The notes below the pieces were generated by a model. The model saw only the letters and a list, made by a program, of their open reading frames with translations, made no database searches and was not told where the DNA came from. From the NCBI GenBank assembly GCA_013001965.1, contig JABDLA010000096.1, positions 1-43,574 on the forward strand: DNA of 43,574 nucleotides, read 5' to 3'. The position numbers and the translations under genes are program-made. Within the stretch, counting starts at the first letter, position 1. Every line of letters starts with the position of its first letter. The stretch is from Flavobacteriaceae bacterium. Its GTDB lineage: Bacteria; Bacteroidota; Bacteroidia; Flavobacteriales; Flavobacteriaceae. Positions 12,823 to 36,026 of the stretch are shown here, piece by piece.

Positions 12823-12827
12823 CGGCC

Positions 12828-13134
12828 AAGCAGATCGCCTTATCGCTGTCTCGTTTAACGAGATGGAGGAAAGTCCGAACACCATAGTGCAGCATAGTGG
12901 TTAATGGCCACCGATCGTGAGATTAGGAAAAGTGCAACAGAAAGAATGTACAGGTTAAGCTGTAGTGAAATCAGGTAAACTCTATGTGGTGCAATGCCAT
13001 GTATACCAGCGCTTGAGCGTGGCACGCGCAATGCTGGTGGGTAGGCAGCTAAAGTGTATTGGTAACAATTCACTCAGATAAATGATAGGGATCACCTATA
13101 AGGTGATACAGAATTCGGCTTATAGATCTGCTTA
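12828..13134 (+). ncRNA. rnpB: RNase P RNA (class A)
   Basis: Conserved GAGGAAAGTCCGAACACC, GTGCAACAGAAAGAA and ACAGAATTCGGCTTATAGATCTGCTT. 5' AAGCAGATC pairs with 3' GATCTGCTT to close the P1 helix. Confidence 0.96.
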
Positions 13135-13141
13135 AGCATAA

Positions 13142-29656: not shown

Positions 29657-31144
29657 ATGAGAGTTAAATTTTCAATATTATTATCACTGTTTTTTGTTTT
29701 GGCTGTCTTTGCCCAGGAAGGCTTACCAACCGATTATCTTTCCTCTGAATTTCATAAAAATAGACGCGAAGCGCTTCGGCAAAAAATGCCTGAAAATAGC
29801 GTTGCCGTGTTTTTTGCCAATCCGGTTAGAAATCGTGCAAATGATGTTGATTATGTGTACCATCAGGATCCAAATTTTTACTATTTGACAGGTTATAAAG
29901 AACCGCATGCTGTACTCCTGATTTTTTCAGACATGCAAACCGATGACAATGGGAACGCTTTTAACGAAATTGTATACGCCCAGGAACGTAATGAATTGTG
30001 GGAGATGTGGACAGGACGCAGACTTGGAGCAGAAGGTGTTAAAAAAGAATTGGGATTTGAGGTGGCCTTTAAGGGTGCTGAATTCTTAAATTCCGGAATC
30101 GATTTTATGGCCTTTGATAAGGTGATGTTTAATGATTTCAGGGATGATTATCGTGACTCCGGAAGGAATACGGCCGACCTATTTGACCTTATTAAATCGT
30201 TTAAGACCCAGGTTGGGTATTATGTAGAAGCATCCAGCGTTAATGTCACGAACGATAACCAGATCGATCAAAATAAGGAAGGGGCTGTCCCCTTGCAGCG
30301 TGCAAAAATAGATACCCAAACGCTCAATAAATTTATGGGCGAATTACGCCAGATAAAAACCCCTGAGGAAATGAAATTGCTAACCAAGGCAATTCGTATT
30401 TCGGCCCAGGGCCAGATTGAGGTCATGAAGGCGATGCATCCGGGCATGTCGGAAACAGAACTACAAGGGATTCATGAATACGTCTATAAAAAATACGGCA
30501 GTGAATATGAAGGTTATCCTTCCATAGTAGGAGCTGGAAATAATGGCTGTGTTTTACATTATATAGAAAACACAAAAACCAAAGTTGAGAATGATTTGGT
30601 ACTCATGGATTTGGGTGCCGAATATCATGGTTATACAGCCGATGTCACACGAACCATTCCTGCGAATGGCAAATTCAATCCTGAGCAAAAGGCGATTTAT
30701 GACCTGGTTTATGAAGCACAGGAAGCAGGTATCGCAGCTGCCATTGTTGGTAACAACGGAGGTTCGACCCACAATGCTGCTAAAGAAGTGATCAATGAAG
30801 GATTGGTGAGGCTCGGAATAATTAAATCGGTTGACGAAAGACATATGTACTTTCCACATGGTACGTCCCATCATATTGGTCTTGATGTCCATGACCTCAA
30901 TACACGGGGGAACTATGAAGCCAATATGGTCATTACAGTCGAGCCCGGAATTTATATTCCTGACGGAAGTCCCTGTGATGAAAAATGGTGGGGAATCGCT
31001 GTTCGTATTGAAGACGATATATTAATTACTGACAACGGCCCTGTAAATCTTTCGGCCGAAGCACCGCGTAAATCAGATGAGATCGAAGCGATGATGAAAA
31101 AGAAAAGCGCTTTGGATAATTTTAAGCTGCCAAAGCTGGATTAA
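29657..31144 (+). CDS. Secreted aminopeptidase P family (Xaa-Pro) metallopeptidase
   Basis: Signal peptide; LMDLGAEYHGYTADVTRTIPANGKF, HGTSHHIGLDVHD, VEPGIYIP. Confidence 0.92.
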   Translation: MRVKFSILLSLFFVLAVFAQEGLPTDYLSSEFHKNRREALRQKMPENSVAVFFANPVRNRANDVDYVYHQDPNFYYLTGYKEPHAVLLIFSDMQTDDNGNAFNEIVYAQERNELWEMWTGRRLGAEGVKKELGFEVAFKGAEFLNSGIDFMAFDKVMFNDFRDDYRDSGRNTADLFDLIKSFKTQVGYYVEASSVNVTNDNQIDQNKEGAVPLQRAKIDTQTLNKFMGELRQIKTPEEMKLLTKAIRISAQGQIEVMKAMHPGMSETELQGIHEYVYKKYGSEYEGYPSIVGAGNNGCVLHYIENTKTKVENDLVLMDLGAEYHGYTADVTRTIPANGKFNPEQKAIYDLVYEAQEAGIAAAIVGNNGGSTHNAAKEVINEGLVRLGIIKSVDERHMYFPHGTSHHIGLDVHDLNTRGNYEANMVITVEPGIYIPDGSPCDEKWWGIAVRIEDDILITDNGPVNLSAEAPRKSDEIEAMMKKKSALDNFKLPKLD

Positions 31145-32436
31145 GTTTTCAGTAAGAAGGCCTTTAACCCCTCATAGTTCTGAATGGGAATTGCTGATTT
31201 TTTCTTGCCCATAACCGATTGAATTTGTGCAGGCAGTTCGATTTTTTTCTGAATAACCTTTTCAACAACGTCTAAAAATTTTGTAGGATGCGCTGTTTCT
31301 AAAAACACACAGTGCGCATCAGGATGATTCTCCAAATAAGATTTAGCGCCTAAATAACCCACAGCGCCATGAGGGTCGGCTACATAATTATAATTATTGT
31401 AGATCTCCAGCATGGCCGAGCGAGTTTCTGCATCAGTGAAACTATAGGATGACAAATTCTCTTTTAAACGGTCAAAATCGTGTTGGTATATTTCCAGGAT
31501 CCGAACAAAATTACTGGGATCGCCAACATCCATAGCATTGCTAATGGTTTGCACCGAAGGTCTTGGCTCATATGAATTGCTCTTTAAAAAATCAGTCACA
31601 ACCTTATTCGCATTATTAGCTGCAATAAAAGTGTTAACTGGCAATCCTAGTTGCTGCGCCATCATGCCAGCGCAAATGTTCCCGAAATTTCCGCTGGGAA
31701 CAGAAAACACAATTTTATCATGGGAAACCTTTAATCTCTTGTAGGCAAAAAAGAAATAAAACATTTGAGGTAACCAACGGGCTACGTTAATGGAGTTAGC
31801 CGATGTGAGTTGCAATTTTGATGTGAGTTCATGATCAAGAAAGGCACGTTTCACCATGTATTGGCAATCATCAAAAACGCCATCAACTTCAAGGGCCGTA
31901 ATATTTTGCCCCAACGTTGTTAATTGTTTTTCCTGGATCTCACTTACTTTAGCGCTGGGATAGAGAATAACTACATCAACACCTTTAACACCAAGAAAGC
32001 CATGAGCCACAGCACCACCGGTATCGCCTGAAGTAGCAACTAAAACTGTGATTTTTTCAGAATTATTTTGATTAAAATATCCTAAACAGCGGGCCATAAA
32101 TCTTGCACCAACATCTTTGAAGGCCATGGTGGGACCGTGATAAAGTTCCAAAACAGATATAGAATCATTTAAAGCAATAACAGGAAAATCAAAGGAGAGT
32201 GTATCTTCAATGATCTGTCGTAATTCTTTCTCCGGAATTTCCGGAAAAACAAATTGTTTAATGACTTCAAAAGCAATTTCTGTATCCGATAACTGATCAA
32301 TAGTGTCGAAAAATGATTTTGGCAATGGTTGGATCGATTTTGGAAAATACAATCCTTTATCAGGGGCCAGTCCTTTGATGACAGCATTTTTAAAGGAGCT
32401 GTCCGGGGCTTGTTTATTTAAACTGAAATAGTGCAT
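31141..32436 (-). CDS. thrC: Threonine synthase
   Basis: YHGPTMAFKDVGARFMAR, VATSGDTGGAVAHGF, ADPHGAVGYLG. Confidence 0.96.
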   Translation of the reverse strand: MHYFSLNKQAPDSSFKNAVIKGLAPDKGLYFPKSIQPLPKSFFDTIDQLSDTEIAFEVIKQFVFPEIPEKELRQIIEDTLSFDFPVIALNDSISVLELYHGPTMAFKDVGARFMARCLGYFNQNNSEKITVLVATSGDTGGAVAHGFLGVKGVDVVILYPSAKVSEIQEKQLTTLGQNITALEVDGVFDDCQYMVKRAFLDHELTSKLQLTSANSINVARWLPQMFYFFFAYKRLKVSHDKIVFSVPSGNFGNICAGMMAQQLGLPVNTFIAANNANKVVTDFLKSNSYEPRPSVQTISNAMDVGDPSNFVRILEIYQHDFDRLKENLSSYSFTDAETRSAMLEIYNNYNYVADPHGAVGYLGAKSYLENHPDAHCVFLETAHPTKFLDVVEKVIQKKIELPAQIQSVMGKKKSAIPIQNYEGLKAFLLKT

Positions 32437-32443
32437 ACATCAA

Positions 32444-33373
32444 TTAGCTTGACAAAATTTTAATGCCTTCGGTATTGATCGTCGAGACATAAGTTTGAAA
32501 TTCGATCTCTGATTTTGAATAAGCGTTTCTCATGGCCTGTTCAACTTCTTTAGCTTTGTGCTGTCCTTTGCTCAATGCAAAGATGGATGGCCCGGAACCT
32601 GAAATAGAACCACCTAATGCACCTGCATTATGTGACGCCAGCATGACTTCATTAAAGTAAGGGATAAGCTTGCTGCGATAAGGCTCTACAATAATATCCT
32701 GTAATGAATGGCAGATCAGATCGTAATCTTCAGTATGTAAGGCATGAACCAAACTTCCAAGGTTAGCCCATTGTTTGATCGCATCTTTCAAGGGAACCAT
32801 TTCAGGAAGAATAGCTCGTGAATCGGCAGTTTTAATTTCGATCTGTGGATGAAGGATCGTTGCATAAAGTTCTTTAGGTGTTGGGATCGAAATGATCTCA
32901 AGAGGATCGATGCCTTTTACCAATGTAAAACCACCAAAAAGTACCGGAGCAATATTATCGGCATGTTCGCCCTGGCTGGCAAGGGCTTCTCCTTTCATCG
33001 CAAAACGGGTAAGCTCGGTTTTGTTATATGGCGAATTCAATAACGCATTTAATGCAAATACACTTCCGGCAGCACTTGCTGAACTACTGCCAATACCACT
33101 GCCTGGTTTTATGCCTTTATAGATCTCAATTTCAAATCCACAGTCCGGTTGGGCATCTTCATAAAGGGCCAAGGCACTGACGCCAGCAACATTTTTATCT
33201 ATATCGAAAGGCAGATCATGACCTTCTATCTTAGTAATTTTTAATCCTTTTTCCGTTGTTTTTCTAACCACCATTTCATCGCCAACACTATCCAAACAGA
33301 AACCAAGGACATCATAGCCACAGGCCACATTGGCAACAGTTCCAGGAGAAAATATTTTAATTTCGTTCTTCAT
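32444..33373 (-). CDS. thrB: Homoserine kinase
   Basis: FSPGTVANVACGYDVLGFCLD, KPGSGIGSSSASAAGSVFALN, GGSISGSGPSIFAL. Confidence 0.96.
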   Translation of the reverse strand: MKNEIKIFSPGTVANVACGYDVLGFCLDSVGDEMVVRKTTEKGLKITKIEGHDLPFDIDKNVAGVSALALYEDAQPDCGFEIEIYKGIKPGSGIGSSSASAAGSVFALNALLNSPYNKTELTRFAMKGEALASQGEHADNIAPVLFGGFTLVKGIDPLEIISIPTPKELYATILHPQIEIKTADSRAILPEMVPLKDAIKQWANLGSLVHALHTEDYDLICHSLQDIIVEPYRSKLIPYFNEVMLASHNAGALGGSISGSGPSIFALSKGQHKAKEVEQAMRNAYSKSEIEFQTYVSTINTEGIKILSS

Positions 33374-33374
33374 A

Positions 33375-35825
33375 TTAATTATTGGCTACACGCATAATAT
33401 CTGCAAATAAACCGGAAGCAGTCACATCTGCACCGGCTCCGGCTCCTTTAATTATTAGTGGTTGTTCTGCATACCTGTCGGTGTAAAACATAACAATATT
33501 ATCTTTTCCTTCTAAATTATAAAAGGGATGACCTGGCGGAATTTCCTCCAATCCAACTTTAGCATTACCTGCACTATATTCGGCAACAAATTTTAACTGA
33601 CAGTTATTTTTTTCTGCCGATGCATATAATTCCTGATAATAAGATTCATCTGCGATCAGCGTTTCATAAAAGGCTTCAACCGAATCGGCCTTCAGAGCAG
33701 CTTCAGTTAAAAAACCTTCACAATGAATATCTTTTAGATTCATGGCGACACCGCTTTCCCTGGCCAGGATCAAAATTTTTCGGGCCACATCAATACCGCT
33801 CAAATCTATTCTTGGATCGGGTTCGGTATAGCCTTCTTCCTGTGCCTGTTTCACCACGTAATGAAACCTGGTCTTATCACTAAAATTATTAAATACAAAA
33901 TTCAAACTCCCCGATAAAACCGCTTTTATGGTATTGATGCGATCTCCGGAGGTTATTAAATGATTAAGCGTATCAATTATGGGCAATCCGGCACCAACAT
34001 TGGTTTCGAATAAAAAAGGCGCATTATATTTCCGTGACAGTTGTTTGAGTTCCAGGTAGTGTTCATAGTCACTTGAACAGGCAATTTTATTACAGGCAAT
34101 GACCGAAATACTCTCCTGAATATATTTCGAGTAAAAATTAGAAACTTCTTCATTGGCGGTCACATCTACAAAAACCGAATTTCGCAAGTTGAATAATTTT
34201 ACCCGTTCAAAGAAGCCTTGCAGTGAAGCCTGATCTCCATTGGCCAAATCGGCCTTCCAGCTTTTTAAAGATAGTCCGTCGTCATTAAAGATCATCGTCC
34301 TGGAATTGGATAAGCCAATCACTCTTAAATTTATTTTAAAGTTGTCCTTAACAAATTTTTTCTGCTTACTAATTTGCTCGATGAGGCGTTCACCAACATT
34401 GCCGACTCCTGTAATGAACAAATTAACCTGTATTGTTTTAACTTCAAAAAAGCGTTCGTGGAGTACATTAAGGGCCTTCTTGACATCCTTTCGGTCAATG
34501 ACAGCCGAGATATTTCGCTCGGAGGCTCCTTGCGCAATAGCCCGAATGTTGACGTTGTTTTTTCCCAGGGCACTAAACATCTTTCCGCTAAGGCCCTGAA
34601 GATTTTTCATGTTATTACCTACTGTGGCTACAATTGATAATCCATCTTCAACGATGATGGGATCAAGTTTATGGAGTGCGATCTCATTTTCAAAGGTTTT
34701 ATTTATAGCTTGCTCAGCATTTTCAGCATCAGCTTCAGTGATGCCAAAGCATATGGAATGCTCTGATGATGCCTGAGTAATGAGGATCACATTGATCTTT
34801 TCCTGTGCAAGTGTTTCGAATAGCCGTTTGCTAAAGCCGGGAATTCCAACCATGCCGTTACCTTGTAGTGTGAGCAAGGCAATGTCATTGATGTTACTGA
34901 TCCCTTTCACAATAGCATCGGCTCCATTTTCAGATGTCTCTGTAATGAGTGTTCCTTCATCGTCGGGCGACATAGTATTTTTTATGGCGATCGGGATATG
35001 CTTATCAAGAACGGGTTGTATGGTTGGTGGATATAGAACTTTCGCACCAAAATGCGATAATTCAACAGCTTCCTGATAGGTAATTCTTCGGATGGGTTTC
35101 GCCTGCTTTACTAGTTTCGGATTCGTTGTGAACATGCCGCTAACGTCGGTCCAGATCTGCAATTCATCAGCCTCAAGTGCGGCTGCAAGAATGGCGGCCG
35201 TATAATCGGAGCCGCCTCTGCCCAGGGTGGTTATTTCGCCTTTTTCCGAAGTGGAAATAAATCCGGGAAATAGGCTGACCTTATGATCATGCTCATTAAA
35301 AAAAGCACGAATGTTTTCCTCAGTCATTTTGAAATTAACAACGGCATTGGTATAATTGGTATCGGTTTTAATGAGGTCCTGCGAATTTTTCAGGACGGCA
35401 TCAACACCGTTCGACTTTAGTGCTTCATATATGATCTTAGATGAAAGTAACTCTCCAAAACTCAGTAATTTATCCGTTATTTTTGGCGATAACTCGTTCG
35501 TGAGAAATAGTCCGTCAAGCAATTGTTTTAGTGCAGATAGATGCTTTGAAACGGCTTCCTCTACTTCAGTACGGCTTTCACTACTTATAAGTTCTTTCAC
35601 CATATTGATATGGATCGTTCTTATATTTTCATATCCATTATTGTAAGCGGCATTCTTCTGAACGGCCAACTCTGCAACATCCAGTAATTTATCAGTTATA
35701 CCTCCAACGGCAGAAACAACGACCACCAGTCGATCCTGATCAGATCGATCTTTTAATATTTGAATAACCTTATTGATGTTTTCAACAGAACCAACAGAGG
35801 TGCCGCCAAACTTTAGAACCTTCAT
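33375..35825 (-). CDS. thrA: Bifunctional aspartokinase/homoserine dehydrogenase
   Basis: MKVLKFGGTSVGSVENI, GRGGSDYTAAILAAAL, C-terminal homoserine dehydrogenase (VLSGSLNFVFNNF, EEGYTEPDPRIDLSGIDVARK). Track start 35849 is GTG; ATG at 35825. Confidence 0.96.
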   Translation of the reverse strand: MKVLKFGGTSVGSVENINKVIQILKDRSDQDRLVVVVSAVGGITDKLLDVAELAVQKNAAYNNGYENIRTIHINMVKELISSESRTEVEEAVSKHLSALKQLLDGLFLTNELSPKITDKLLSFGELLSSKIIYEALKSNGVDAVLKNSQDLIKTDTNYTNAVVNFKMTEENIRAFFNEHDHKVSLFPGFISTSEKGEITTLGRGGSDYTAAILAAALEADELQIWTDVSGMFTTNPKLVKQAKPIRRITYQEAVELSHFGAKVLYPPTIQPVLDKHIPIAIKNTMSPDDEGTLITETSENGADAIVKGISNINDIALLTLQGNGMVGIPGFSKRLFETLAQEKINVILITQASSEHSICFGITEADAENAEQAINKTFENEIALHKLDPIIVEDGLSIVATVGNNMKNLQGLSGKMFSALGKNNVNIRAIAQGASERNISAVIDRKDVKKALNVLHERFFEVKTIQVNLFITGVGNVGERLIEQISKQKKFVKDNFKINLRVIGLSNSRTMIFNDDGLSLKSWKADLANGDQASLQGFFERVKLFNLRNSVFVDVTANEEVSNFYSKYIQESISVIACNKIACSSDYEHYLELKQLSRKYNAPFLFETNVGAGLPIIDTLNHLITSGDRINTIKAVLSGSLNFVFNNFSDKTRFHYVVKQAQEEGYTEPDPRIDLSGIDVARKILILARESGVAMNLKDIHCEGFLTEAALKADSVEAFYETLIADESYYQELYASAEKNNCQLKFVAEYSAGNAKVGLEEIPPGHPFYNLEGKDNIVMFYTDRYAEQPLIIKGAGAGADVTASGLFADIMRVANN

Positions 35826-35899
35826 TCCCGATGAATTAGATGTTTGCACTTAAACGTTTGCAGTTTTAACTGTATAATATTGACGAAGAACTATAACTA

Positions 35900-35917
35900 A
35901 CAACCCTAACGGGTTGT
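35900..35917 (-). promoter_or_regulatory. Attenuator-like hairpin at the end of the thr leader peptide
   Basis: Minus strand ACAACCC-GTTA-GGGTTGT perfect 7-bp stem; a second upstream ACAACC (35921..35926 on +) competes for the same GGTTGT. Confidence 0.55.
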
Positions 35918-36001
35918 CTCGGTTGTAAATGTACCAAAAACAGAACTGTTTCCTAAAAGGAAAGAGGGAAAAGTTCCTATATTTTGTTTTAATAGATGCA
36001 T
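35906..36001 (-). CDS. Candidate threonine leader peptide, 31 aa
   Basis: MHLLKQNIGTFPSFLLGNSSVFGTFTTETTR*: 5 of the last 8 residues are Thr; 80 nt upstream of the thrA ATG; preceded by TACATTTG. Confidence 0.65.
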   Translation of the reverse strand: MHLLKQNIGTFPSFLLGNSSVFGTFTTETTR

Positions 36002-36018
36002 TTGGTCACTATACGTAC

Positions 36019-36026
36019 CAAATGTA
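36019..36026 (-). promoter_or_regulatory. Bacteroidota-type -7 element (TACATTTG) for the thr operon
   Basis: CAAATGTA on +, exact TAnnTTTG on minus; predicted TSS about 10 nt before the leader ATG. No convincing TTG -33 box. Confidence 0.5.

Follow-up and report, generated by a model that had tools for sequence, protein, structure and literature searches.

Most work on leader-peptide attenuation has concerned Proteobacteria, Firmicutes and Actinobacteria. In E. coli, the thrL leader is a short ORF rich in Thr and Ile codons that precedes thrA, the gene of the fused aspartate kinase-homoserine dehydrogenase. The thr operons of Bacteroidetes may be covered by Lopatovskaya et al. 2010 (Mol Biol 44:128). 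Two later papers (PMC4833913, PMC10272879) cite that work, which lies outside the literature searched here; within that literature, no published thr leader of Bacteroidota was found. In actinobacterial ilvB leaders, the regulatory codons overlap the hairpin, which is followed by a poly-U run (PMC1262725). A transcriptome study of F. psychrophilum (PMC9723704) describes strong clues to leader-peptide attenuation 5' of amino-acid operons and names conserved 5' elements at pheA and hisG among others, a list in which thrA may also appear. Since such clues have already been reported in a flavobacterium, the novelty of a further leader of this kind is limited.

The window, a stretch of 43,574 nucleotides, comes from a Flavobacteriaceae genome of 2.74 Mb that is 87% complete; the relatives of its thrA agree with this family assignment. 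Its thrABC operon lies on the minus strand, where thrA (33375 to 35825; NCBIfam NF006959, E=0) encodes the bifunctional aspartate kinase/homoserine dehydrogenase I, thrB (32444 to 33373; NF002288, TIGR00191) homoserine kinase and thrC (31141 to 32436; TIGR00260) threonine synthase. The divergent neighbour of this locus is a NAD(P)H-hydrate epimerase/dehydratase gene. Elsewhere in the window, a bacterial class A RNase P RNA is located on the plus strand at 12827 to 13138 (RF00010, 214 bits).

The three thr genes stand 3' of a leader ORF of 31 amino acids on the same strand (MHLLKQNIGTFPSFLLGNSSVFGTFTTETTR; 35906 to 36001), which begins with an ATG at 36001, ends in a Thr-rich segment with a TAG stop at 35908-35906, and has equivalents in 108 non-redundant loci. 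Its coordinates and sequence agree with the preliminary description, as does the distance of 80 nt to the thrA ATG at 35825; an alternative GTG start of thrA at 35849 is absent in most relatives. The regulatory codons, ACA ACC GAG ACA ACC (Thr Thr Glu Thr Thr), occupy 35911 to 35928 on the minus strand. Just upstream of the ORF, at 36026-36019 on the same strand, is the exact Bacteroidota -7 promoter element TAnnTTTG (TACATTTG) that had been pointed out earlier, and the leader transcript probably starts just 3' of it. This element is common in the leaders of relatives, lying 60-190 nt 5' of the hairpin in 101 of 108 leaders versus 36 of 95 control windows. The region gave no match to the covariance model of the Thr leader RF00506 at the gathering score or at E up to 10, and no Rfam riboswitch or T-box was matched 5' of thrA at gathering or permissive thresholds. 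The Bacteroid-trp model (RF01692) has no match at the thrA site, its only match in the genome being on contig C158 (G000:C158:7784-7906), where a U-tract is present.

The comparison of thrA upstream regions drew on 30 loci from this genome and its relatives, 80 named genome contigs and 60 class-level or extra regions. Removal of near-identical entries left 108 non-redundant leaders with an ACCC-loop-GGG hairpin, called P3, nearly all of them from Flavobacteriaceae and with many genera represented. An ORF of about 28-38 codons with a Thr/Ile-rich end is found at about -190 to -80 of thrA in almost every Flavobacteriaceae locus; the leader element was not found by the pattern used in L047, L083, L088, L107 and L109, among others. 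With a frame choice that favoured the Thr frame, P3 opens with an in-frame Thr codon, ACC, in 108 of 108 leaders, and the stop codon falls 6-18 nt past the P3 start in 106 of 108. Of the 12 codons preceding the hairpin codon, Thr accounts for 27.5%, Ile for 21.1% and Met for 5.2%, together 54%, with Lys, Asp, Glu and Leu nearly missing. When the comparison was repeated without such bias, all of the 108 leaders (100%) had frame 0 open over 20 codons or more, compared with 53% and 27% for the other frames. Per 12 codons, frame 0 holds a mean of 3.3 Thr versus 0.06 and 0.21 in the other frames, and 6.4 Thr, Ile and Met codons versus at most 0.6.

A conserved short ORF rich in codons for the end product of the operon is present upstream of it, as in amino-acid leader-peptide attenuation. 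The Thr-rich leader peptide proposed earlier before thrABC is borne out by the alignment of relatives: many genera share the Thr-rich ORF and where it lies, as well as the promoter element and the hairpin, and the hairpin covaries; its reading as a threonine-operon leader peptide is well supported by these comparisons. The conserved frame points to translation of the leader ORF. Substitutions by codon position (86:78:109 in 20 disjoint pairs) show a weak bias that would be expected of a leader peptide and is not proof of translation. Past the P3 Thr codon the peptide is variable (TLWGC, TPWG, TRLG and TPLG, or TR and TP followed directly by the stop), and ACCC and GGGT are kept whether the 3' arm of P3 is coding or lies after the stop. 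Since the peptide varies yet ACCC and GGGT persist, it is the RNA that is conserved here rather than the peptide. The Winogradskyella leaders (L051, L058, L061, L065, L066, L071, L073, L076, L085 and others) have a regulatory segment rich in Ile, Met and Ser instead of Thr, for example MSISMFFISTIIT, with P3 kept. Ile and Met are also end products of the pathway, and this suggests that Winogradskyella may sense them in place of Thr.

In the window, P3 has 8 bp and a 4-nt loop (GACAACCC-GTTA-GGGTTGTT; 35899 to 35918, minus strand; -12.5 kcal/mol). The last two regulatory codons, both Thr, sit inside its 5' arm, and the start of the leader stop codon falls within its loop. In many relatives, P3 is short, with 4-5 bp. 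Its ACCC/GGGT core is uninformative by covariation because it hardly varies, so the covariation is that of the outer pairs: columns -1/+1 are paired 51 times versus 34 expected, and columns -2/+2 59 times versus 37 (0 of 2000 permutations). In a 43-sequence alignment, changes on both sides affect 20 cells versus 13.1 ± 2.1 in shuffled data (0/500), and 80% of P3 cells are paired versus 61% or less in slid structures. Pairing was also compared between matched and mismatched partners for ten leader segments in 59 equally weighted clusters, with kinship handled by clusters rather than by a full tree; P3 gave a z of -3.9 (0/200). Mutual information over the whole leader without gaps was dominated by relatedness and indels, and that result was set aside. 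A covariance model of P3 plus its tail has the thrA leader as its only match in this genome and finds the thrA leader in ten genomes. Elsewhere, over 40 genomes, it gave only one match in a coding sequence and three in repeats (E about 0.06-0.08), none of them convincing.

Around P3, the leader contains further elements of unequal weight. P1 (35928 to 36010, minus strand) is a weak long-range helix of the minimum free energy structure, in which ACCAAA (36006-36001) pairs with UUUGGU (35938-35933); its analogue in relatives, a helix between codons 5-9 and codons -9 to -6, is weak after clustering (z -1.6). P2 is a hairpin inside the ORF (TTTCC-TTTTA-GGAAA; 35949 to 35963, minus strand) that has a covarying counterpart at a similar place in relatives (z -4.5, 0/200), and it is probably a pause hairpin for RNA polymerase. 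Following P3 is an AU-rich, G-poor tail (35882 to 35898, minus strand), defined by column composition, which ends in a TTCNGNC-like box (TTCTTCGTC, 35890-35882). A C/U-rich box near TTCNGNCC is conserved at +14 to +25 after P3, between P3 and P4; no partner or function was identified for it in the flavobacterial leaders. P4 (CAGT-TAAA-ACTG; 35861 to 35872, minus strand) is weak in the window and marks the site of a conserved second hairpin, which in relatives starts about 28 nt past P3 and shows compensating changes (z -9.9, 0/200).

The preliminary description had combined two tandem ACAACC blocks with a single GGGTTGT into mutually exclusive stems. The blocks (35926-35921 and 35916-35911) and the GGGTTGT (35906-35900) are indeed present in the window, but the two-block arrangement is local and recurs in 5 of 108 leaders. 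The second block is not conserved, and the distal pairing reaches -6.2 kcal/mol, about 6 kcal/mol weaker than P3, so that the two-block switch was rejected as a conserved mechanism. The permutation scans over the ten leader segments found no conserved competing partner for the 3' arm of P3 and no conserved antiterminator. Pairing of a freed 3' arm with a downstream partner, also considered, was rejected, its signal being diffuse and pairing with the tail in fact avoided (z +2.7).

Taken together, these features make it probable that thrABC is preceded by a ribosome-sensing leader in which a stalled ribosome covers P3 directly. Transcription would start just past TACATTTG and the leader peptide would be translated, with P2 probably pausing RNA polymerase and letting the ribosome catch up. 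When Thr-tRNA is scarce, the ribosome would stall at the Thr/Ile codons leading into the 5' arm of P3; in relatives scarce Ile-tRNA would also stall it, as might Met-tRNA in some genera. The stalled ribosome would cover the 5' arm, P3 would not form and thrABC would be expressed. When Thr is plentiful, the ribosome would reach the stop in or just after P3 and leave, P3 would form and expression of the operon would fall. A ribosome covers about 12-15 nt ahead of the decoding site. Since the regulatory codons enter the 5' arm and the leader ends within P3 or immediately behind it, a stalled ribosome must cover P3, and the dependence of P3 formation on ribosome position would follow from this geometry. 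Direct occlusion needs no antiterminator and so fits the absence of one. The stalling, the occlusion and the pausing at P2 are what we infer; the ORF, its codon bias, its position relative to P3 and the hairpins P2, P3 and P4 rest on the comparison of relatives, as do the lack of a U-tract at P3 and of a conserved antiterminator.

How P3 would lower expression depends on what follows it. The sole tail after P3 in the window is AGTTATAGTT, which has no U-tract; this feature had been correctly remarked on before, and the absence is common to almost all relatives. A TransTerm-type tail score is -3.5 in the window and -3.2 in the median relative, compared with -5.3 to -6.2 for hisG and trp leaders, whose tails were chosen by eye. 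In the same family, hisG leaders such as MNFIQFHHHHFHTCT precede standard hairpins with U runs. Among Flavobacteriales, L178-L194 are His-rich (HHHH) hisG leaders with antiterminator-like and U-tract terminator elements. The upstream regions of ilvD, taken as a further control, showed no clear conserved leader. Once formed, P3 may serve as a weak terminator by means of its AU tail, may let Rho act on the G-poor spacer, or may work through a post-transcriptional step; early termination of transcription, either non-canonical or assisted by Rho, is favoured over translational control. A fuller version of the occlusion reading is put forward tentatively, at somewhat less than even chances: the stalled ribosome would itself be the antiterminator on the 5' arm of one small hairpin, neither an antiterminator RNA nor a U-tract terminator would be involved, the output would be non-canonical (Rho, or the AU-rich tail with the TTCNGNC box), and in Winogradskyella sensing would have shifted from Thr to Ile/Met.

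Stalling in the upstream ORF of E. coli topAI acts through Rho. A Rho-dependent readout of the thr leader, for which ribosome stalling in that ORF is a known parallel (PMC12121999), would have the ribosome leave at the leader stop, Rho load on the spacer of about 80 nt, which is G-poor with C in excess of G, and transcription end before or in early thrA, unless a stalled ribosome prevents this. The spacer between the leader stop and thrA has 6.8% G and 17.5% C, whereas 456 control 5' regions have 11.5% and 13.1%; pairing between this spacer and the 3' arm of P3 is avoided. This bias is moderate, however, as 7.5% of controls are as high, and it may simply keep the spacer unstructured; nor is it obvious by what means a ribosome that stalls upstream could protect the spacer. 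As a rival account, this readout is unlikely. Control after transcription, in which P3 and the position of the ribosome would alter thrA translation or mRNA decay, is improbable to a similar extent. It requires no terminator and so fits the missing U-tract, and P4 and the TTCNGNC box are conserved between P3 and the thrA start. Against it, the thrA start region showed no conserved pairing partner, and most foldings leave the last 40 nt ahead of thrA unstructured.

Slightly less likely still is a classical thr attenuation similar to that of E. coli thrL, in which P3 would correspond to the 1:2 hairpin, the 5' strand of P4 would find its partner in the 3' arm of P3 or in the Thr codons, and P4 would be a degenerate terminator. 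The Thr-codon segment does show modest complementarity to the 5' strand of P4 (z -2.5, 0/200), and P4 hairpins followed by U runs occur, mostly in Winogradskyella in the examples listed. Pairing of the 3' arm of P3 with P4 is weak (z -1.2), however, and only 13 of 94 family loci carry 6 or more T within the 8 nt that follow P4, while the same scan shows no P4 in 18 of them and P4 in the window is followed by CAAACGTT. P4 was rejected as a general terminator, since its U-run is confined to a few lineages; no intrinsic terminator of hairpin plus U-tract was found before thrA, the minority with P4 and U runs being the exception. A layout with exactly the helices of classical attenuation, and with a U-tract, is seen in L123 (family f64), where a P3-like hairpin precedes a U-tract terminator and has in its 3' arm a sequence complementary to the 5' strand of that terminator. 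That the ORF and hairpin arose by chance, short ORFs being common in AT-rich DNA, is scarcely credible, since five Thr among the 13 codons ending at the hairpin have a binomial P of about 7e-4 from the window sequence alone and a chance origin is made untenable by the covariation and by a frame, codons and a stop position that are conserved throughout the family.

The thrA leaders of family f55 of the same class (L139, L141, L143, L145, L151, L152, L160; for example MTTNNTIIITIITTGINLGGR) precede the same gene with a Thr/Ile-rich leader ORF. They differ from the flavobacterial leader in having a U-tract terminator, and in L143, where antiterminator complementarity was checked, GGAGGAAG pairs with CTTCCTCC to form the antiterminator. 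These leaders give separate support to Thr sensing by a leader at thrA. On sequence grounds, there are two thr leader layouts in the class, the flavobacterial one being without a canonical end, and the thrA leader of L123 is possibly an intermediate between them. These bacteria also possess amino-acid leaders in Bacteroid-trp (RF01692) and the flavobacterial hisG leaders. Both of these have a U-tract terminator and those of hisG also a likely antiterminator, two elements that are absent from the thr leader. With standard U-tract terminators retained in the hisG and trp leaders of this family, the thr leader offers a natural contrast for asking how expression is cut in these bacteria when no U-tract is present. 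The actinobacterial ilvB leaders share with it the overlap of the regulatory codons with the hairpin itself (PMC1262725), but have a poly-U run and belong to another operon, other amino acids and another phylum. The leader has no match in Rfam 15, to which it could be added as a family. Its closest likeness is to thrL of gamma-proteobacteria (RF00506), which is also a short Thr/Ile-rich ORF directly 5' of a fused thrA in a thrABC operon; the flavobacterial leader differs in having neither a U-tract terminator nor a conserved antiterminator and in that its regulatory codons enter the hairpin arm. It offers a family-wide, testable thr leader in Bacteroidota, with an architecture simpler than the textbook one.
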